Source: a virus. Taken from it: 23,106 nt of DNA. The stretch lies in IMG/VR virus record IMGVR_UViG_3300030107_000680, positions 1 through 23,106 of that record, one strand, 5' to 3'. The position numbers and the translations under genes are program-made. The notes beneath the pieces were generated by a model, which ran no database searches, was not told where the DNA came from, and saw nothing but the letters and a program-made list of their open reading frames with translations. This document shows, piece after piece, positions 10,094-23,106 of the stretch; position 1 is the stretch's first letter; each line of letters begins with the position of its first letter.

Positions 10094-11992
10094 TTATGTT
10101 ATGTCTACTACTTCACACACATCACCAGAGCAAGCCATAGTTTGCATTGCTAAAGTGTTGTCTTCTTGCTCATACTCAGATAGCTTAGACCAATCTATTC
10201 TCTCTGGCATGAGTGACTTTAATGTTTCATAATCTTGTTGACTACAATCTTGATAAGGCGCTTGTTGATATATATGATCTGAGTGAGGCAAGAAAGACAC
10301 TCCTGACATTTCATCAAAGTATTTGTACACAAATGCACCTACCTCCATCCACTCTTCATCTTGTACTGTGATAGTTACACTAGGCTTGTGCTCACAAAAA
10401 TGACGCTGGTATATTAACCACATTTCTAGTTGCTCTATAGCTGTCATATCATTCCTAGTTATTGCACCGTTAGGTGACTTAATAGGAAAGCTAAACACGG
10501 TGGTAGTATCACCTTTCATAACGCAAGGTTCGTTAGGTATACCTTGATCTATCATAAACTTGGTGAGGGGATCTTTGTTATCACCACGTACAGTACGGAC
10601 ATAATATGGAGAGTGACGAGCATGTATGCCACTTGCAGAGTCAACCAGTTGGGAGACTGTTCCAGACGGTTTGACGCAGCTAATTGCAGCAGAGGGCGGT
10701 ATGTTAAGACGACTAGCAAGTTCAGTGTTAGTAGAAATGGCGACATTCTTTAGGTGCTCCAGTGTTTTATCTAAGCCTTTATTCTTAGGTGTCATTAAAC
10801 GATTGTCCATTATGCCTGTCAGTGACACACCAAGCAATCGTTCTTCTTCTGTATTGTTTTGCCACACCTTACGCAGGTAGGGGAACTTAGTGTAGGCTGA
10901 CTGTATTGTTCCAAGAATAGTTGCAATGCGGACTTTTCGTTCAAGATCATCAACAGTGTCTGTGGCACGTACCACAACTTCCGTAAGATTGCAAAACTGA
11001 TACGGCCTAAGTATAATTTCACTGCAAGGATTAGTGCCAAAGTCATAGTTAGGATCACGCCTGTCTGCTTTAGCAGCTTGTTTCTTAGATGCTTCACGAT
11101 TAAATACTCCTCTCTCTCCTGACTTACTTTCAACTAACGCAAGCCACTCACGCATAAACGTTTCCATATCAGGCTTTTCTGTGTAGCATACAGAGTTATT
11201 AGCTAACGCACGATGCGCTGCTGAAGCCCACCATTTCCCTGACTTAGCGTGTCGCATACGATCATCACTTAGGTTGGACAAAGATATCATTGCACTACGC
11301 CTGACACCACCTACAACTACGATCTGCCCTATAAAGCACATAAGATCGTGGCACTCTATACTGGATAGCTTACGCCCTTGTGCGTTCTTGAATGTCTGCA
11401 CAGCAAAGTTAAACAGTTCTACTAAAGGCGCTGGGCCTGACGCTCTACCGCCAAACGTTTTAAGTCTTGCACCTGCAGGACGAACTTTAGTTACATCCCA
11501 TTTAGCAATCTCACCAGCCCAAAGGAGTGCCAACAATTGCCTAAACGACTTAGCCCATCCCTCCTTGCTGTCCTTTACAACGATAGTGGTATCGCTCTCG
11601 AAGAGAGTAGGGATTTCAGGGAGCTTACTGATGTATTGCCTCTCGACACTGAAACCGACACCAGTACCACAGAGCAAGATAAACATAGCCTCATCAAAGG
11701 ACTTAGGGTCATCTACGGTTAGATAACTACAGTTATACCCTGCAGTATTGTCACGCTCTAACGCTGGGCCAGCAGTCATCATGGCTCTCATGGATGGCAT
11801 GACTTCTAAGTTAAGTATAGCATCACGTATGTTGTTTACATAGGTGTCGTTGCCTAGCTTTGGACGTATTACGTTGTCCATGTATCGCTCTACTGTATCA
11901 CTCCAAGACTCACGCCCCTTACCGTCAAAGTACTTAGCGTATCGTGACTTATGTATAAAGGACTGATAGTCTGTAGGTAAATAGTTATCCAT
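10094..11992 (-). CDS. nrdJ: Adenosylcobalamin-dependent (class II) ribonucleotide reductase
   Basis: This 632-residue enzyme reduces ribonucleotides to deoxyribonucleotides for phage DNA synthesis, using a vitamin B12-derived radical. It resembles the monomeric Lactobacillus leichmannii type (739 residues), though shorter. The key residues are in place: Cys88 in GYNCSYL and Cys334 in FCNLTEVV (redox pair), Cys323 and Glu325 in NPCSEIIL (radical Cys and catalytic Glu), and a C-terminal pair, Cys621 and Cys626 in ACSGDVCEV, that would recharge the active site. ARHSPYYVRTVRG and KPSGTVSQLV are further family signatures. The gene overlaps the MazG-like gene by one base (TAATG). A class II enzyme needs no oxygen and no small subunit, but needs B12 or a precursor from the host. 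Internal minus-strand frames in this stretch are shadows. Confidence 0.92.
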   Translation of the reverse strand: MDNYLPTDYQSFIHKSRYAKYFDGKGRESWSDTVERYMDNVIRPKLGNDTYVNNIRDAILNLEVMPSMRAMMTAGPALERDNTAGYNCSYLTVDDPKSFDEAMFILLCGTGVGFSVERQYISKLPEIPTLFESDTTIVVKDSKEGWAKSFRQLLALLWAGEIAKWDVTKVRPAGARLKTFGGRASGPAPLVELFNFAVQTFKNAQGRKLSSIECHDLMCFIGQIVVVGGVRRSAMISLSNLSDDRMRHAKSGKWWASAAHRALANNSVCYTEKPDMETFMREWLALVESKSGERGVFNREASKKQAAKADRRDPNYDFGTNPCSEIILRPYQFCNLTEVVVRATDTVDDLERKVRIATILGTIQSAYTKFPYLRKVWQNNTEEERLLGVSLTGIMDNRLMTPKNKGLDKTLEHLKNVAISTNTELASRLNIPPSAAISCVKPSGTVSQLVDSASGIHARHSPYYVRTVRGDNKDPLTKFMIDQGIPNEPCVMKGDTTTVFSFPIKSPNGAITRNDMTAIEQLEMWLIYQRHFCEHKPSVTITVQDEEWMEVGAFVYKYFDEMSGVSFLPHSDHIYQQAPYQDCSQQDYETLKSLMPERIDWSKLSEYEQEDNTLAMQTMACSGDVCEVVDIT

Positions 11993-12354
11993 TATCGTTT
12001 GTCTCCGCTACCTTTTAGTGTGCCTCTTTCTTGTCTATCTTTTAACTTAGCTAAATTATTCTTAGCTACGTCAGACAAGTCTACACTTAGGTCACGGCAT
12101 AGTGCAGCTATGTACCACATACAATCGCCTATCTCGTCAGCTATAGCGTCACGATCAAACTTACCATCCCTCATAATTTTTTTTACTTTATTAGCTACCT
12201 CCCCTGCTTCTGCAGCTAAACCCAGCGCAGGATATATTACTTGGTGTTCATGTTTATATATAGCTGTAGATGCAGCCATCTCTTGATATTCGTTAAGTAG
12301 ATAATCTACATCGTTAAATCTCTTGAACGCATCAATGTCCTCTTTAGTAATCAT
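11992..12354 (-). CDS. MazG-like nucleoside triphosphate pyrophosphohydrolase
   Basis: This 120-residue single-domain protein has the all-alpha NTP pyrophosphohydrolase signature: GLAAEAGEVANKVKK supplies the first metal-binding acidic residues, and DEIGDCMWYIAAL the second ExxD pair. It ends with KGSGDKR, common in phage homologues. Such enzymes hydrolyse (d)NTPs to monophosphates and pyrophosphate. In phages a role in dNTP balance or in lowering alarmone levels has been proposed but is not settled. The start has GGAGAGGTGG upstream, formed by the end of the 57-residue gene one base away, and its stop overlaps the reductase start (TAATG). Pairing with nrdJ supports nucleotide metabolism. Confidence 0.85.
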   Translation of the reverse strand: MITKEDIDAFKRFNDVDYLLNEYQEMAASTAIYKHEHQVIYPALGLAAEAGEVANKVKKIMRDGKFDRDAIADEIGDCMWYIAALCRDLSVDLSDVAKNNLAKLKDRQERGTLKGSGDKR

Positions 12355-13727: not shown

Positions 13728-14584
13728 AAGTGATCACTCCTTAATAAGACATATTCTACTGTTGGTGGTGTTAGCTTTCCACTGTAGACCTTTGAAGGTA
13801 AAGCTCTAAGTGAAGGCCAGCATTTCTTTTTGTGTGAGCAGAAGCTACACGTTTTATTTAACTTGTGATTGCCACTTGTTTTGCCACGATACGTTTCTGG
13901 CACAGGCTCAAAGCAACGCTCAAAGGGTTCATCTTTATCTAAGTAATCATAGGTATCCTCTATCTTTCTTAACACTTCTCTTTTGTCTACCTCAGAAGCT
14001 GACACGTACTTGAAGTCACCGTTGCCTTTGTTGACTACCCACCAGCCACCTACATCTTTACCTGCAGCAGTAGCGTACCCTACAAGCTGTGACACGTAAC
14101 CAAACGAGTCACCTTTGTTTAAGCTGTGGAAGTCTTCAAACTTATTTTGAAATGACCAAGGTGATGCAGACTTTACATCATCTATTTTACCATCAAGTAT
14201 CATGTCGTACTCACCAGATATCTCTGCTTTGTTTGACAGCTTGAGTGTCACGTTATCGTTGTCTTCAAACTCTGTGCCTGATGCTCTGAGCAATCCTTTA
14301 AACACAGCCTCAACTATATCACCTATGATCATGTTAATCTTAAATGATGCAGGTAAAGGTTCTGCGTTCTCAGGTTTGTTCTTATCAAACCATAGCTGAC
14401 ACTTAGGACGCCCTACATTTGACATCCTAACTTTGAACTTTCGTTTTTCAGAGTTAAACTGTTTATGTAAGGCTTCTTTAATATCGTCAGCTACCTTGTC
14501 AATAACCTCCTGTGACATCCCTGCCTTACCATCAATAGATTTTCTCAGGTAAGAATGTACAGACAGTTCAGCAGGGTGTTGCAT
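13724..14584 (-). CDS. Cas4/RecB-like PD-(D/E)XK nuclease with Fe-S cysteines
   Basis: This 286-residue protein has the RecB/Cas4 nuclease layout. GEYDMILDGKIDDVKSA supplies Asp127, Asp136 and Lys138 (the D...DxK core), and QLVGY supplies Gln165 and Tyr169 (QxxxY motif). Four cysteines flank this core: Cys62 in RPKCQLWF, and Cys246, Cys249 and Cys255 in CSFCSHKKKCW. That one-plus-three arrangement is the 4Fe-4S signature of Cas4 and AddB-type nucleases. The likely role is a DNA exonuclease in recombination, end processing or host DNA degradation, standing where T7 has its own exonuclease. There is no CRISPR array or other cas gene here, so a CRISPR role is not implied. It overlaps its neighbours by 1 and 4 bases. 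Confidence 0.85.
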   Translation of the reverse strand: MQHPAELSVHSYLRKSIDGKAGMSQEVIDKVADDIKEALHKQFNSEKRKFKVRMSNVGRPKCQLWFDKNKPENAEPLPASFKINMIIGDIVEAVFKGLLRASGTEFEDNDNVTLKLSNKAEISGEYDMILDGKIDDVKSASPWSFQNKFEDFHSLNKGDSFGYVSQLVGYATAAGKDVGGWWVVNKGNGDFKYVSASEVDKREVLRKIEDTYDYLDKDEPFERCFEPVPETYRGKTSGNHKLNKTCSFCSHKKKCWPSLRALPSKVYSGKLTPPTVEYVLLRSDHL

Positions 14585-15426
14585 TATTCAAAGTCCTCCA
14601 AGTCTACGATATTAGACACGATCTTGGATGACTCCTTGTCAAGCTTTTCTACGTGTGTTTCATCCCATTTGTTTAAGATGTAATCGTTTTGATTCTCAAC
14701 GTAAGAAACAAAGTCTTTTAGCGCATCGTTATCTGCTTCTGTGATAGTAACCATCTCACCTAGTGATGCTTGGATAACTGCATACTTATTGCCGTTAGGC
14801 ATAGCTCTAACGTCACCTCTAAGTTTTATAAGATGTTCTACTGGAAGTATACGTTTAGTTTGTAGCTTCTTTATTATATCGTCAATAGACTTTAAGCTTT
14901 CACGATTTTTTATATCAGCTACAAAAGGAACTTCACTTTCGTATCCTACTACTGGCTCACCACCCTCAACAAAAGGATCAGAGAAATAAGCCATACCCAT
15001 GTAGACTTTAACACGATTAACGCTACGTATAATATCTTTTGTAGCATCAGGTAGACCGTTGAAATCTTTGATGTAGCCTGTAGGTCTACCTAAGTTAAAC
15101 GTACCTAAAGTATCTTTCAAGTCTGCATTTAAATTAGTTGACATTACAGTTTTGTGAAACATGCTGTTTTCACTATCCCACTTCTGCCAGCGTTGTCTTT
15201 GTGTAAAGATACGCAACTCTATTTCACGAGAGTAAAATACCTCTTCATCTTTCTTAATCTTAAATACTGGTGAGTTTGTTACTTTACCGTCAACAGCTTC
15301 TTGAATGACAGTCGATGTAATCCTGTGTAAATTAGAACTACCTCCACTACCTTCTGCAGTGCTGCCAAAACCCATAGCGTCAGCTAGGTTCATGTTGTCT
15401 ACACTAAGTGCAACTTCCATACTCAT
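14584..15426 (-). CDS. Possible single-stranded DNA-binding protein (280 aa)
   Basis: I start the gene at the ATG at 15426, because GAAAGGAAAAAACAAT lies just upstream. The longer frame from 15489 would have to begin inside the polymerase gene without a ribosome-binding sequence. No known fold was recognised with certainty. Visible are Gly/Ser-rich GSTAEGSGGSSN early on, a central part rich in aromatic and basic residues (YSREIELRIFTQRQRWQKW, GRPTGYIKDF), and an acidic C-terminus ending NIVDLEDFE. An acidic aromatic-containing tail and a place between polymerase and exonuclease are typical of phage ssDNA-binding proteins such as T7 gp2.5. This is an inference from position and tail. It could also be a recombination mediator or another replication accessory protein. 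Confidence 0.5.
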   Translation of the reverse strand: MSMEVALSVDNMNLADAMGFGSTAEGSGGSSNLHRITSTVIQEAVDGKVTNSPVFKIKKDEEVFYSREIELRIFTQRQRWQKWDSENSMFHKTVMSTNLNADLKDTLGTFNLGRPTGYIKDFNGLPDATKDIIRSVNRVKVYMGMAYFSDPFVEGGEPVVGYESEVPFVADIKNRESLKSIDDIIKKLQTKRILPVEHLIKLRGDVRAMPNGNKYAVIQASLGEMVTITEADNDALKDFVSYVENQNDYILNKWDETHVEKLDKESSKIVSNIVDLEDFE

Positions 15427-15469: not shown

Positions 15470-17512
15470 CTAAACGTCCTTGATGTCAAGCCAATTCTTA
15501 CCTATTTTGGCTTCTAATAATAAAGGCACGTTCATTTTTATATCGTATGCCTCTTCCACTAATTTATTAAGATCATCATTCAATGTGTCTATCGTTGCAA
15601 GTACGTACTCCTTTTCGTTTGGGTGAACATCTACTACCACAGAATCATGCACACTGTTAACTATGCCTGACTGCATCTTTTCTAACCTGGCATCTAACTC
15701 AATCAAGACAAGTGGAACTACATCACCTGTAGCGAAGCCTTGTACAGGATAGTTTTTTATCATAGTGAAGTGCGTCACACTGCCATTCTCTCTACGTGTG
15801 ACATCAGGGAAAGCGTACTGCCTACCACTTACGTTAGTTATCTTTTGAAAGCGTAGTGCCTCGTTACCTAAGTCAGTGTGCCACCTAGCTATACCTTTGT
15901 ATTTATCTACGAAGTGCCTGTAATACTCTGCCTCTGCGTTGCTTCTACCGTATCCTGTGGCTCCAAAAAGAGGCGCAAAGGTGTGAGCTTTGGCTTCTTG
16001 CCTAGTTGTAGGTTGCCCTGCATCAGAAATAACTTGGGCTGTGTAGCTGTGTACATCAAACCCTGTCTCTATTTCTTGCATGGCTGTCTCGTCTTGCGAT
16101 AGAAACGCTGCGGCTCTAAACTCAAGCTGGGCAAAGTCAGCTTCCAGTATGTGACCGTCAGTCCAGCGAGAGATAAACACACGTTTTACAGGGAAGGTTC
16201 CTCCTCTTGGCATGTTTTGCATGTTGGGCTTTCGTCCAGAAAATCTACCTGTACTGGTGATATGCTGGGTAAGACCGACATGGAGGAGTCCATCTTGTTT
16301 AGTGTAGGTGGAAATACCATCCACAAAACTACTGAGATAACTGCTAACAGCAGACAACCTTTTAACACCTGTAATGAACTCTTCTGCATTTTTTAGTTCT
16401 CCTTTCTTTGCAACGTGATTGATCATATCTAATCTGTCTTTACTTGTACTAAAACCATTAGCACTAATCCAAGACTTGTTAGGTGCTCTAAACTGTAGTC
16501 CTGCAGCGTGAGATAGTTCTCGTAAGTGATAGCCTTTACCGTCACACTCCTTACATTTAGTAGGCTTGGCGTACTTTGTGCCATCCTTCCTTACTTTAAA
16601 CACTTTCCCTTTACCTGTGCAGCTAGAACATATAACAGCGTATGTCTTGAGTATCATGTCACTGTTTTTTTCTACGGTGTTTTTAAACTCTTCTGGTGTA
16701 TTTACGTGTTCAAACAAGTCAGCCCACTCTTTTTTATTATGTACTCTTCTACCAAATATTACTTGCGACAGTTGTTCTGGAGAGTTTAAATTTATGGGCG
16801 TGTCACCCATTAGTTCTCGCACCTTTTTTTGCAACCTGTCTTCGATTTCGTTACGCTCTTGTTGGAACTCATTACGGACATGTTCGAGGGCGGTAGTATC
16901 CACCCTGAATCCACGCATGTACATTCTTGCAAGGGATTTGCAGGTACGGAAGGTAATGTCTCTGACGTTATGTAAGGAAGTTGAGGCAGGGTCTTGATAG
17001 TCTGCTTCGATCGCTTTGTACAACTCGCCAGTACTATGCAGATCGCAAGACAAATAATGGCTAAGTTCACCCAAGGGAATCTCATTTGTGTTGTATCCTT
17101 TCTTGTAGTATGTCTTGAGAGTGTCATCCTTTTGATATTCTAACTGTCTGCGCTGGGCGCATTGCTCTAAACTTAGTGGTTCTTTCTGTCCACGTTGAAG
17201 TAAATACTCAGCAAGCATCGTGTCGTAGATATCACCATCGTAAGTAAAACCACTAGCCCACAGCCATGACAAATCGTATTGTAAGTTGTGTCCTATCAAT
17301 AACGTTGTAGAGTCAAGCCACCTCTGTAGTTTGCACTTATTGTTTTGCGTGTCATTCCTTTCTTGATGGTCAAAGCAAAGCAGAGACTTCTGTTGGGTGT
17401 CTAGGCACAGCACACCCACCTGTGTGAGAGTATTGCTAGGCTCAAATGGATCGTTGTGTATCTTGCCATCACGTAAAGTGATAGAGTTTTCTACATCAAG
17501 AACTCTTTTCAT
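15470..17512 (-). CDS. Family A DNA polymerase with DnaJ-like zinc module
   Basis: This 680-residue replicative polymerase has intact proofreading motifs: Asp6/Glu8 (LDVENS), Asp80 (GHNLQYD) and Asp157 (YLSCD). The polymerase motifs are TGRFSG at 421-426, motif A with Asp459 (EADFAQLEFR), motif B from Arg504 (RQEAKAHTFAPLFG, with Lys508) and motif C with His622-Asp623 (VHDS). Phe512 corresponds to E. coli Phe762. Phe516 stands where E. coli has Tyr766. Between the exonuclease and polymerase parts, Cys295, Cys298, Cys320 and Cys323 form two CxxCxGxG repeats like the central domain of DnaJ. This feature was reported for phage HMO-2011 and is the best taxonomic marker here. The start overlaps the helicase stop (ATGA). 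Confidence 0.95.
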   Translation of the reverse strand: MKRVLDVENSITLRDGKIHNDPFEPSNTLTQVGVLCLDTQQKSLLCFDHQERNDTQNNKCKLQRWLDSTTLLIGHNLQYDLSWLWASGFTYDGDIYDTMLAEYLLQRGQKEPLSLEQCAQRRQLEYQKDDTLKTYYKKGYNTNEIPLGELSHYLSCDLHSTGELYKAIEADYQDPASTSLHNVRDITFRTCKSLARMYMRGFRVDTTALEHVRNEFQQERNEIEDRLQKKVRELMGDTPINLNSPEQLSQVIFGRRVHNKKEWADLFEHVNTPEEFKNTVEKNSDMILKTYAVICSSCTGKGKVFKVRKDGTKYAKPTKCKECDGKGYHLRELSHAAGLQFRAPNKSWISANGFSTSKDRLDMINHVAKKGELKNAEEFITGVKRLSAVSSYLSSFVDGISTYTKQDGLLHVGLTQHITSTGRFSGRKPNMQNMPRGGTFPVKRVFISRWTDGHILEADFAQLEFRAAAFLSQDETAMQEIETGFDVHSYTAQVISDAGQPTTRQEAKAHTFAPLFGATGYGRSNAEAEYYRHFVDKYKGIARWHTDLGNEALRFQKITNVSGRQYAFPDVTRRENGSVTHFTMIKNYPVQGFATGDVVPLVLIELDARLEKMQSGIVNSVHDSVVVDVHPNEKEYVLATIDTLNDDLNKLVEEAYDIKMNVPLLLEAKIGKNWLDIKDV

Positions 17513-18729
17513 ACCGTGTACCTTGATCTGTCACCGTCTAACTCACAATGTATAACACCATGCCATCCACCACGTAGTTTGTTTTTAGCTATGTTTAAGT
17601 GTCGCTGTGGATCTTGTTCATCTTGACCCTCCACTTGTGGGTTCTTAGAAATCAACACCATCAAGTCACACTCTGCAGCCTTACCTGTCTTGCTACCCTC
17701 CATCATAGATTGATCTACGTAGACTTTACCTTCAGCATCAGCAGACAGTTGTGACATCCATATGATAGCACAGTCGTACTGCTTCGCTATGTTACGTGCG
17801 TGTATCGCTGCGTCCTTGAGGTACACATGAGAGTCAGCACTGCCTTTACTGGCAAACTTATCACCCATGTCTAGCACTAAGATGTCAGGCTGGTATGCTT
17901 TTACTACAGCCTCAACCCAACGCATATCTTTACCTGTGCTATCTTTAATCTTGATATTATCGTGTACAGGTTTGTACCTAGTTGCAGCTAGTGCGTAGTT
18001 ACCTTTGACTTCATCCATAGACATATTGGATGCTGCACTTAGATACCTAGCACCTACACGATCATAGGATTCCTCGTTGCACAAAACTATACAGTTCGCA
18101 CCCTGCCTAGCAAACCCACCTTCTGAGGCTATAATAGAAGCGTGGAAAGATGTTTTGCCTGTATTTGGCCTTGCACCCACCAAAACTAAATGACCACCTG
18201 ACACACCTTCTATGCGCCTTTGCAGTGTTGGTATGTTAAACTTCCACTTAGCTTGGATGTCAGCCTTTTCTAGTAAAGTATCAATAGATATATCTCCCCA
18301 ATCAATCTTGAGGTTAGGCATAAAATCATCTTGATAGTCTTCGATTATCTTACGCACAGGCTCCAAGGTATTCTCTGCACCGTTGACGTACTTAACACCT
18401 AAGTTAGCTATCTCCTCTCCTACTAACTTCTGAAACATATTACCCATAACTTCCTGTGCAATGTCAGGCGACATAGGTTCTGCTTTGTTTATCCTCTTGA
18501 ACAACTCTCTGTACGAATCCTTGTTAGCTGTAGTCAAGACGTTGTGCGTAAAGAACAATCCTTCTAGTTCTGCTGGTGTTATACTCCTTTCGTAAGTATC
18601 CATAGCGTAGTCTAAGGTTCTCTTGATACCACGCAAGTCTTTACTGAATAGGTTGTCAGGCGTCCTGATCCCTTTGTTGTTCTCGTAGAACTCCTTGTCC
18701 ATCAGTGTTCTTATCAGTGCTAACTCCAT
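17509..18729 (-). CDS. DnaB-type replicative helicase
   Basis: I choose the ATG at 18729 (406 residues) with GAGAGGA just upstream; an in-frame GTG at 18741 would add four residues. Numbering from that GTG, the C-terminal RecA-like domain has Walker A GARPNTGKTS at 189-198, a Walker B-like DILVLDMGD ending at Asp291, WMSQLS with Gln331, and KNKLRGG near 387-392, which may supply the arginine finger. The N-terminal about 160 residues are helical and lack the zinc-binding and TOPRIM parts of T7 gp4, so the primase is encoded separately (20770-21585). It should unwind the replication fork as a ring. The last codon overlaps the polymerase start (ATGA). The start lies inside a 46-residue ORF in another frame. 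Confidence 0.9.
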   Translation of the reverse strand: MELALIRTLMDKEFYENNKGIRTPDNLFSKDLRGIKRTLDYAMDTYERSITPAELEGLFFTHNVLTTANKDSYRELFKRINKAEPMSPDIAQEVMGNMFQKLVGEEIANLGVKYVNGAENTLEPVRKIIEDYQDDFMPNLKIDWGDISIDTLLEKADIQAKWKFNIPTLQRRIEGVSGGHLVLVGARPNTGKTSFHASIIASEGGFARQGANCIVLCNEESYDRVGARYLSAASNMSMDEVKGNYALAATRYKPVHDNIKIKDSTGKDMRWVEAVVKAYQPDILVLDMGDKFASKGSADSHVYLKDAAIHARNIAKQYDCAIIWMSQLSADAEGKVYVDQSMMEGSKTGKAAECDLMVLISKNPQVEGQDEQDPQRHLNIAKNKLRGGWHGVIHCELDGDRSRYTV

Positions 18730-18796
18730 TGTTCCTCTCACTCTTCTCTATCGCTCTTTGTCTTTCTTCATCCGTCATAGGTCTAATTTTTTTCAT
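18656..18796 (-). CDS. Small ORF overlapping the helicase start (46 aa)
   Basis: The ATG overlaps the ThyX stop in the ATGA arrangement seen at most junctions of this operon. The frame then runs 74 bases into the helicase gene in a different frame. The product begins MKKIRPMTDEERQRAIEK and is entirely polar, ending with a Gln/Asp-rich tail. If not translated, about 60 bases between ThyX and helicase would be noncoding, unusual here. A short leader-like ORF that couples ThyX and helicase translation is the alternative view. No homologue recognised. Confidence 0.5.
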   Translation of the reverse strand: MKKIRPMTDEERQRAIEKSERNNGVSTDKNTDGQGVLREQQRDQDA

Positions 18797-19431
18797 CTGC
18801 GATACGCCTTTGCTAGTGCAACCCAAGACACAGGAAACTGTTTATGCATTATTACGCTAATTTTCTTGGCAACTTCTTGTGTCTCTACTTGTGTATCAGA
18901 AGCACATCTCAGTTTACACATATCTGACCAAGCATCAAGGCTACCTGACCAGTACCACTCAGTCATAGTGTTTTGTGGCAACACCATACGTGCTTGTTCT
19001 GGACATACGTTTTGATGTAAAAGGTATTCGTATTTATGCTTTGCACTTACCATATTTCTTTCAAATCGAATACGTAAGTTTTCAGAGTTTATGACTCCTC
19101 CTGATCCTTGTTTTTTATTTTTAACTGCTTTGCGAAACTCAGGTATATAAAACTCAGGCTCACTATCCACATATCTACGACTAATTTCATTCCAACGTAG
19201 GAACTTATGCTTGACTAGCTGTCTAGCTACAAAGATAGGAGCCTTGACGTGGAAGGTAGCGAAACAGTGACCAAAGGGTGACATGTGATTGTTATCTGCT
19301 AGATAATATATAAGTTTAATATCTTTATCTCGCAATTCTACTCCTGGAACGTGTTTACCAAAAGATACTCTGGCTGCATTTACTACAGTTATATCATCTC
19401 CCATATCATCTATTAACTCTACTGTTATCAC
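18793..19431 (-). CDS. thyX: FAD-dependent thymidylate synthase ThyX
   Basis: This 212-residue enzyme makes dTMP from dUMP with methylene-tetrahydrofolate, NADPH and FAD, as a homotetramer. The ThyX signature is at 74-86 as KHKFLRWNEISRR. The canonical form is RHRxxSxNExSxR, so the first and third Arg are Lys and the Ser is Arg. Such variants with a WNE(V/I)SRRY ending occur in other phage and bacterial ThyX proteins. HMSPFGHCFATFHVKAP (49-65) and ARMVLPQNTMTEW (146-158) are further family blocks. The start codon is GTG, overlapping the previous TAG (TAGTG), with TAGGAG eight bases upstream. With the B12 reductase it supplies thymidine precursors. Confidence 0.93.
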   Translation of the reverse strand: MITVELIDDMGDDITVVNAARVSFGKHVPGVELRDKDIKLIYYLADNNHMSPFGHCFATFHVKAPIFVARQLVKHKFLRWNEISRRYVDSEPEFYIPEFRKAVKNKKQGSGGVINSENLRIRFERNMVSAKHKYEYLLHQNVCPEQARMVLPQNTMTEWYWSGSLDAWSDMCKLRCASDTQVETQEVAKKISVIMHKQFPVSWVALAKAYRR

Positions 19432-19616
19432 TAATAATCTCCTACATTCATTGGAGCATATACTTCTCCGTTATACCTTGTTGGTGTATCGTAATCACTA
19501 AACAAAGCTATAAATACAAGCACCAGTATGCAAACTATAAAAACTTTCTTAGTTTTATCTATGAATATTGCATACGTTTTTTCTGCTTCTACTTGTGCTT
19601 CCTCTCTAGGTGTCAA
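19431..19616 (-). CDS. Small single-helix membrane protein (61 aa), TTG start
   Basis: The frame has no ATG or GTG near its beginning. A TTG at 19616 follows AGAGGAGG by six bases, an excellent signal, so I use it. Residues 1-23 are charged, 24-40 form one membrane helix (KVFIVCILVLVFIALF), and about 20 polar residues follow with Tyr and Pro. The topology is probably N-in. Its stop overlaps the ThyX GTG start by one base. Function unknown. It could modify the host envelope or act in lysis, but nothing in the sequence says so. Confidence 0.65.
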   Translation of the reverse strand: MTPREEAQVEAEKTYAIFIDKTKKVFIVCILVLVFIALFSDYDTPTRYNGEVYAPMNVGDY

Positions 19617-20167: not shown

Positions 20168-20659
20168 TTATCCTCCATTTATATTTAAGTCTGCTTCTGC
20201 TAATACCAGTATGGCTTGCTCTCTGGTTATCTTGAACCACTCACCTTGTCGCTCACCGTAACGCTCTGCTACCTTGTGTGCTTTACGCTCTGCTTCTAGT
20301 CTATCTTTAAAGTAGATGTCGTACACTAGAACGTAATCACGCATAGGTGAGCTAGTTTGATAACCATTTAATCTATCTTGTGCATCTATAGCCATGCCTA
20401 TCTTGATCCACTCAGGCCAAGCAGGGTTGCAGATAGCGTAGACGTATCCTTCTTTTACTTGTTCATCCTTTTGTAGTGCAGTAAAAGCTGCGTCACCAAA
20501 AGATTTATACTTTCCTGGTTTATGTAAAGGGTGATGTATAGAAATGTAGTTACCGTTAACATGCATCCTCTTTGTATTATTATATTCGCGTTTTGTCTCA
20601 GGGTTGTCCTTGTAGTAACGCTTTTTACCTGTCTTTGGATTTATTTGTTCAGCCATCAT
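20168..20659 (-). CDS. T5orf172 / GIY-YIG-like domain protein (putative nuclease)
   Basis: Residues 71-142 fit the T5orf172/MUG113 branch of the GIY-YIG superfamily: GYVYAICNPAWPEWIKIGMA for the first strands, then Arg96 (AQDRLNGYQTSSP), acidic residues in DRLEAERKAH (Glu122, Glu124) and GEWFKI (Glu140 to Phe142). GIY-YIG enzymes cut DNA, but many members of this branch have no tested activity. Residues 1-60 are basic and could bind DNA (GKKRYYKDNPETKREYNNTKR is typical). Its position among replication genes suggests DNA processing, host takeover or a former homing element. GC content looks like its neighbours. AAAGGAAATAAGG precedes two successive ATGs; I use the first. Confidence 0.75.
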   Translation of the reverse strand: MMAEQINPKTGKKRYYKDNPETKREYNNTKRMHVNGNYISIHHPLHKPGKYKSFGDAAFTALQKDEQVKEGYVYAICNPAWPEWIKIGMAIDAQDRLNGYQTSSPMRDYVLVYDIYFKDRLEAERKAHKVAERYGERQGEWFKITREQAILVLAEADLNINGG

Positions 20660-21594: not shown

Positions 21595-22122
21595 CTACAA
21601 AAAGTTTTCACTAGAGTAATATTTAAATCCTTTATTCTTATTACTAGCTGTGTTTTTTACAGATTTCATATTATCAGATACAGAAACCCATCGTAAATTA
21701 TACACTGAGTAATCTAATTTATCTTCATTTATATGATCTACATTATAGTTATCTAAAGGTAATGGATTATGAACATACGCCATACCAAATATTCTATGTG
21801 CATACACACGGACACCTTTATCTCCATTACTTATTGTATAACAAGGATAAACAGCCCGACTACAATTAGGTACTATTATATTATTTGTACTGTTATTGAA
21901 TATGTAAGGAAAATCTATCCTATCTTTATACATAGGCAGTGGATGCGCCCCTCCTGTAGGGTAAATAGTATACTTTCCTTTAGGTACAGAGTTTAAAAAG
22001 GATGAGGTTCTATTTAAATCAATCCTTCTTTGACCTTTATCACCAAAAAATATAGATATAGAACTAATATCTAAACAATCTTTAGCTTTTATTTCGTCTT
22101 TAAGAAACAAATCATACTGCAT
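21595..22122 (-). CDS. HNH (HNH_3-type) homing-like endonuclease
   Basis: The 175-residue product carries an HNH_3-like motif at 109-151: YAHRIFGMAYVHNP, then YNVDHINEDKLDYSVYNLRWVSVSDN (Asp129-His130, Asn142, Trp145, Asn151 are the key positions). These small nucleases make site-specific cuts and often spread as free-standing homing genes. The gene is strikingly AT-rich: two 60-base lines (21661-21780) hold about 27 percent GC by hand count, while sample lines of the flanking primase and integrase hold about 47-53 percent. This points to recent transfer. It is inserted cleanly, overlapping the integrase stop by one base (TAATG) and leaving nine bases before primase. Confidence 0.85.
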   Translation of the reverse strand: MQYDLFLKDEIKAKDCLDISSISIFFGDKGQRRIDLNRTSSFLNSVPKGKYTIYPTGGAHPLPMYKDRIDFPYIFNNSTNNIIVPNCSRAVYPCYTISNGDKGVRVYAHRIFGMAYVHNPLPLDNYNVDHINEDKLDYSVYNLRWVSVSDNMKSVKNTASNKNKGFKYYSSENFL

Positions 22123-23045
22123 TACTCTCTATCCTTGTATGCATTGCGCTGGGCTAATGCTTCTGATGCTCCAGTATACGTATGTTTGATGTAAGGAGTC
22201 AAGCTATTTATGTTAGTGTGACCACTAACTTGTTTGATCTGTGTTATATCTACACCAGCTTCAACCATTTCAGTAATAGCTGTACGCCTCATATCCATAG
22301 CTGTCAGGTGGCTTGGCAGTCCAGCTTCCTTGAGTATTGCATTGACGTGTACGTGAAGACCTTCTTTTGAGTAAGGCTTGTACGCTCCATCGCTAGGCTG
22401 TATCTGTGGAGCTACCAAGACTTGAAAGCTAAACGTTTCGTGTTGCTGTCTCAGTACGTGCATCAAGCCATCACTGATAGGTAAGTGTACTGCTTCACCT
22501 CGTTTGCTTTGCTCAAAGTCACAGCGTCCTTTGTCTAAGTCTATAGCGTTCCACAACAGCATACGCATATCACCTACACGCTGACCCCACTCGTAAGCCA
22601 TGTGTACAATTAGTCCTACTGATCGCCACTTCCACTCACTGTACGCTGTATTCAAGAACAGCTTGACCTGGCTTGGCTCCCACGTAACTTTACGAGATGG
22701 GTTAGGTGTCTTGTCTATGTACGGCATAGGGTTGAAGACACGTAAGTTATTCTTCGTAGCCCAATTAATAAGTATAGACATGATCGCAGCTATCTTGTTT
22801 GCACGATGCACTCCACGTATAAGCCAAGCGTTGTAGTGTCTCTGTATGATAGGCACAGTCAAACGTTTAAGACTGAGATGACCTAATCCATTCTCTATTA
22901 TACTTAAGCAGTCATAGTAGTCTTTTTGTGAAGCGTGACCTAGCTTGCGAAACGCATCTGACTTTAAATATGCGTACACTAGTTGACGTACTGTCTTAGC
23001 TTTTACTGCTACCATTTCCTGCGTGTCTTCCAGTAAACCCAACAT
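22122..23045 (-). CDS. int: Tyrosine recombinase / phage integrase
   Basis: I use the ATG at 23045 (307 residues); an in-frame TTG at 23087 would add 14 residues but lacks a ribosome-binding sequence. An upstream in-frame stop lies within the window, so the gene is complete. Counting from the TTG, a SAM-like core-binding domain covers about 30-120. The catalytic set is Arg170 (EWGQRVGDM), Lys195 (QSKRGEAVHLP), Arg267 (MDMRRT), His290 (VSGHTNINS) and nucleophile Tyr299 (TPYIKHT). The His normally found three residues before Arg267 is Met264. The enzyme would insert or excise the genome at an attachment site, which I could not find. It is the first gene of the minus-strand operon in view. Its presence suggests a temperate ancestor or life style. 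Confidence 0.88.
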   Translation of the reverse strand: MLGLLEDTQEMVAVKAKTVRQLVYAYLKSDAFRKLGHASQKDYYDCLSIIENGLGHLSLKRLTVPIIQRHYNAWLIRGVHRANKIAAIMSILINWATKNNLRVFNPMPYIDKTPNPSRKVTWEPSQVKLFLNTAYSEWKWRSVGLIVHMAYEWGQRVGDMRMLLWNAIDLDKGRCDFEQSKRGEAVHLPISDGLMHVLRQQHETFSFQVLVAPQIQPSDGAYKPYSKEGLHVHVNAILKEAGLPSHLTAMDMRRTAITEMVEAGVDITQIKQVSGHTNINSLTPYIKHTYTGASEALAQRNAYKDRE

Positions 23046-23106
23046 TCTGAACAGTGTCCTTTCCCTACTACGAGATCTATTAGCCAAACCAAGTTAGGCT
23101 TATGAT

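Follow-up and report, generated by a model that had tools for sequence, protein, structure and literature searches.

Introduction

What is a DnaJ-like cysteine module doing in a phage DNA polymerase, and in which part of the enzyme does it sit? In HMO-2011-type polymerases the module has been published as a 'partial DnaJ domain' between the exonuclease and polymerase domains (PMC9038755, PMC6918029), and a first, sequence-only reading of the DNA analysed here took its occurrence there as known. It has so far been a marker of this dominant marine phage group, and its DnaJ label has carried no role beyond a chaperone hint. The papers found for this polymerase family contain neither an experimental structure nor an assay of zinc or processivity, and none of them assigns the HMO-2011 module to the thumb.

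The window, which is the whole stretch of viral DNA that was analysed (23,106 nucleotides), contributes one more member to the published group. Added here are the placement of the module in the polymerase thumb, its separation from the thioredoxin-binding insertion of T7 gp5, a set of relatives with a zinc-less hairpin, the conservation of basic residues, and the hypothesis that the hairpin grips DNA. Presence, conservation, thumb placement, the difference from T7's site and basic character are computational results.

The polymerase gene and its neighbours

The window derives from a podophage of the HMO-2011 type. Its polymerase (Table 1) belongs to family A: it matches PF00476 and carries Asp459 in motif A and His622-Asp623 in motif C, the three residues being invariant in alignment A1. 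The positions given earlier for four aspartates (6, 80, 157 and 459) are correct in the translation. The protein shares 55% identity with its counterpart in Puniceispirillum phage HMO-2011 and 57–68% with those of several Roseobacter CRP phages; the enzymes of HMO-2011, CRP-1, CRP-2, CRP-207, CRP-345 and CRP-603 (55–68% identity) have the same two CXXCXGXG motifs. In a structure search with the modelled polymerase, the closest fold was the large fragment of Bst DNA polymerase I (Z 33.8, 540 residues); T7 gp5 was absent among the best 50 matches listed, other family-A polymerases ranking higher.

Table 1. Polymerase gene and thumb features in the window (nucleotide positions; residues numbered along the polymerase)
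Feature	Position	Strand	Basis
Family-A DNA polymerase with 3'-5' exonuclease, HMO-2011 type, 680 residues	15473..17512	minus	Pfam DNA_pol_A 172 bits, DNA_pol_A_exo1 24.9 bits; stop codon 15470-15472
Thumb helix H1 (residues 245-253, within motif INLNSPEQLSQVIF)	16754..16780	minus	AlphaFold2 secondary structure
Complete hairpin with putative zinc tip: incoming strand 284-294, tip 295-327, outgoing strand 328-336	16505..16663	minus	AlphaFold2, block pLDDT 84-91
Putative zinc tip: Cys295/298/320/323 in two CxxCxGxG units, joined by the basic 21-residue linker TGKGKVFKVRKDGTKYAKPTK (net +7)	16532..16630	minus	Four Cys in 280/280 relatives
Thumb helix H2 (residues 358-370), which bounds the insertion downstream	16403..16441	minus	AlphaFold2 secondary structure

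Other genes in the window encode a helicase (17509–18741) and, on the minus strand, a B12-dependent ribonucleotide reductase (10094–11992), a MazG-like pyrophosphohydrolase (11992–12354) and a ThyX thymidylate synthase (18793–19431). A T5orf172-domain gene (20168–20659), an HNH endonuclease (21595–22122) and a tyrosine integrase (22122–23087), all on the minus strand, lie near a primase gene; the integrase suggests that the phage is possibly temperate. A 61-residue reading frame at 19431–19616 (minus) matches COX4_pro_2 with 22.2 bits against a cut-off of 22.0, probably by chance through a membrane helix.

The cysteine module and its DnaJ label

The translation contains the two CxxCxGxG units that had been picked out from the sequence, CSSCTGKG and CKECDGKG, with Cys295 at nt 16630, Cys298 at 16621, Cys320 at 16555 and Cys323 at 16546; these are the sole C-x2-C motifs among ten cysteines. 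All four cysteines are kept in each of 280 HMO-2011-group relatives, collected by viral contig scans with several polymerase queries and from annotated phages and counted when their reading frame reached 550 residues; four of the contributing viral scans used no peptide of the module, while 23 loci from a scan with a CRP-212 query that included the module peptide AMCCKECE are not independent for cysteine conservation. Such retention argues that the module is not a chance occurrence, and the loss of cysteines in relatives, named earlier as an observation that would speak against the idea, was seen in none of the 280 long copies.

The spacing is C-x2-C-x21-C-x2-C in 269 of these relatives, and in the remaining 11 the central stretch is x33. 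Some CRP-738-like polymerases (L084, L184, L185) have this 33-residue linker between the pairs, with an extra TRQKNGKKYK. In alignment A1 the cysteines belong to those positions of the insert that do not vary. The first glycine of the second motif, on the other hand, is missing in 82 of 280 relatives (29%), and this looser conservation indicates that the putative zinc ligands are conserved, rather than the DnaJ signature as such. Pattern and conservation together are consistent with a Cys4 site for one zinc ion, although the AlphaFold2 model contains no zinc.

The likeness to DnaJ is partial. Residues 293–330 match Pfam PF00684 with E = 1.1e-4 and 22.8 bits, short of the curated cut-off of 32.7, and a search with a profile of the module recovers E. 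coli DnaJ at its zinc-II hairpin (1exk) with E = 2.7e-5. The match covers the middle part, that is the second and third motifs, which is half of the DnaJ zinc domain, and a Pfam scan of the window polymerase gave no match to a J domain.

Position of the module in the thumb

An AlphaFold2 model of the polymerase, built from a 61-sequence alignment, has a mean pLDDT of 91.5, with 84–91 across the module and slightly lower values, 84–89, at the tip. The letters H, H1, H2 and I follow the usual naming of Pol I helices. In the model, helix H (residues 206–235) is followed by H1, two short extra helices, the strand leading into the hairpin, the cysteine tip, the outgoing strand, H2 and helix I (374–403; Table 1). 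The module is thus modelled as an insertion in the H1–H2 loop and as a part of the polymerase thumb, which corrects its earlier placement between exonuclease and polymerase. The models hold neither zinc nor DNA, and the distance of the hairpin to DNA is judged from thumb topology.

Helix H1 provides the landmark for this placement: its motif INLNSPEQLSQVIF aligns with NINSPKQL of Bst and FNLSSTKQL of E. coli, and it lies after T7's insertion and before the module of the window. Helices H and H1 are continuous between the window protein and E. coli Pol I (z 9.5, small gaps only), and the module follows about 40 residues past H1. Downstream of the module the pairwise signal against E. coli Pol I is weak (z -0.5), so that the assignment of H2 depends on the AlphaFold2 model and the multiple alignment.

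In T7 gp5, which was placed by pairwise landmark alignment since a MAFFT alignment misplaces its FNPSS segment, the insertion (residues 258–333) ends right before FNPSS at 334. From this point T7 aligns with the thumb of E. coli Pol I, starting there at FNLSS (z 12.3); about the first 47 columns contain one gap, of a single residue. The residues preceding the insertion align with E. coli helix H (z 7.9). T7's insertion therefore separates H from H1. The positional equivalence proposed by the sequence-only reading is thus rejected, the landmark alignment and the model putting the two elements in different loops. Homology gave no signal either: the insert has no sequence similarity to T7 gp5 258–333, with an alignment score equalled by 51% of shuffles. 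What survives of the proposal is the thumb location, found in the model; both elements being thumb insertions, the earlier guess was probably close in space, but wrong in topology.

Zinc-less relatives and a possible origin

Outside the HMO-2011 group, Vibrio phages ICP2 and VP41s3 and the marine contigs L195–L224 have polymerases without the CxxC pairs, yet with an insert of about 40 to about 140 residues in the same slot after H1. These inserts carry basic tips such as YKSGKKEGQIKTRKEK, with a net charge of +4 to +6. A model of one of them (L213, pLDDT 89.5) has helix H at 205–230, H1 at 245–253, H2 at 317–329 and I at 335–360, and between H1 and H2 a plain beta-hairpin with strands at 255–264 and 286–295. 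The shared slot and basic character make the zinc unit look like a zinc-stapled form of an existing thumb hairpin. In a polymerase tree built without the insert columns, in which the deep branches are long and unsure and the root is unsure, one branch (SH-aLRT 95) separates the zinc from the zinc-less forms. Most likely, the zinc unit has a single origin in the ancestor of the HMO-2011-type polymerases, where it would have developed from an older, plain basic hairpin. A possible alternative is that the zinc hairpin and the plain hairpin were inserted into the same slot independently.

Two further observations concern zinc-less polymerases. Stenotrophomonas phage StenR_269 has a zinc-less polymerase whose H1–H2 loop is short, and a thioredoxin-domain gene (L086:918-1184) lies two genes ahead of it. 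ICP2-type polymerases (L087:947-3040, L088:1447-3777) are split into two genes right past a QN(I/L)SN motif; VP41s3 has a small gene between the halves, and in some relatives the gene there is annotated as an HNH endonuclease.

A basic hairpin and what it may contact

The linker between the cysteine pairs is strongly basic, with a net charge of +3 to +10 (mean +5.7; n = 280 relatives). Within the same protein, other 21-residue stretches are equally basic in a median share of 0.3% and at most 7.8% (subset of 172 relatives). In alignment A1, positions 289 and 308 hold lysine or arginine in 52 of 52 zinc-type rows, and positions 306, 309 and 319 in 90–96% of these rows; hydrophobic positions of the hairpin vary more than the conserved basic ones. 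Basic residues conserved on a presumably stiffened hairpin of the thumb suggest that it touches the DNA backbone behind the primer end. We give about an even chance to the reading that the module is an intrinsic, DNA-gripping thumb hairpin stapled by zinc, and not a dock for a host partner. In this mechanism a single zinc ion on the four cysteines would most likely stiffen the tip, as the Cys4 pattern and the likeness to DnaJ zinc-II suggest. The lysine and arginine cluster would then, most likely, hold the duplex by its phosphate backbone immediately behind the primer end, and the grip may raise DNA affinity and processivity without bound thioredoxin, or with less need of it. There are precedents for this proposal: truncation of the thumb tip of E. 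coli Pol I lowers processivity, according to work cited in PMC10061031, a lysine-rich thumb insertion of plant organellar polymerases has been modelled at duplex DNA (PMC7699545), and basic residues of T7's insertion touch DNA in molecular dynamics (PMC5984650).

A basic hairpin might bind protein instead. As the main rival reading it is possible, if rather unlikely, that it docks a replication protein of the phage, such as the acidic tail of its own single-stranded DNA-binding protein (SSB) or helicase, as basic thumb insertions can do: the C-terminal tail of T7 SSB binds the T7 thioredoxin-binding domain (PMC7699545), and for the PolA of a mobile element, binding of its SSB at the tip of the thumb has been predicted (PMC10061031). 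Immediately downstream of the polymerase, the gene at 14584–15426 (minus) encodes a candidate single-strand binding protein that ends in the acidic ...IVDLEDFE, and many near relatives have a similar tail; this product, however, has no convincing Pfam or PHROG match, which makes its identity as an SSB a guess, and in the HTVC033P and CRP-235 subgroups the tail differs while the hairpin is still basic. The partner originally suggested, a host processivity factor or chaperone such as thioredoxin or DnaK, is an unlikely ligand. In its favour, T7 binds thioredoxin at the thumb, the module matches motifs two and three of DnaJ, which form the zinc-II hairpin (1exk), and phages that infect SAR116, Rhodobacteraceae and SAR11 have kept it. 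To our knowledge, these hosts all have thioredoxin and DnaK. Against such docking stand the different loop and the lack of similarity to T7's insertion, a PF00684 match that stays below its cut-off over half a DnaJ zinc domain, and the glycine lost in 82 of 280 relatives. The conserved residues of the module, moreover, are basic and not hydrophobic, which fits DNA contact better; basic residues are nevertheless compatible with a partner, since T7's own basic insertion touches DNA with thioredoxin bound (PMC5984650).

Cys4 sites often serve to hold structural zinc, and the invariance of the cysteines would suit a staple that folds a large thumb insertion and makes no special contact; we consider this quite improbable, because a staple alone leaves the conserved lysines of the linker and the basic hairpin of the zinc-less relatives unexplained. 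Cys4 zinc sites can also be redox-sensitive, so that oxidation or loss of zinc might unfold the hairpin and alter processivity. Such a switch seems very improbable, and in those genes of the window that were scanned neither a thioredoxin nor a glutaredoxin turned up.

Comparison with known systems

The namesake of the module is the cysteine-rich central domain of DnaJ (1exk; PF00684), with which it shares a hairpin pair of C-x2-C-x-G-x-G motifs; DnaJ, however, has four such motifs and two zinc ions, whereas the window polymerase has two motifs only. The likeness could reflect descent of the tip or convergence on a small Cys4 hairpin. The lambda Q antiterminator and anti-TRAP have the same small pair of Cys4 motifs, but are different proteins from the polymerase, and their profile matches (E 0.02–0.26) are too weak for a claim of descent. 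The insertion of plant organellar DNA polymerases differs from the module in being linked to lesion bypass, and the relevant section of PMC7699545 mentions no zinc motif for it.

Like the module, the thioredoxin-binding domain of T7 gp5 is a thumb insertion, of 76 residues against about 84, with a net charge of +6 against +5; unlike it, T7's insertion lies in the H–H1 loop and is not a Cys4 zinc hairpin. It is basic, has been described as an intrinsic clamp that contacts DNA once thioredoxin is bound, and in molecular dynamics its residues K281, K285 and R288 touch DNA (PMC5984650). Thumb placement, separation from T7's site and the link to zinc-less hairpins turn the module into a testable question on the processivity of phage polymerases, and suggest that its DnaJ label is misleading as to function. 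We tentatively suggest, with clearly less than even confidence, that a widespread marine phage group has built a partner-free DNA clamp into the polymerase thumb by stapling a basic hairpin with zinc. If true, this would be a solution to processivity parallel to T7's thioredoxin clamp, one loop away.
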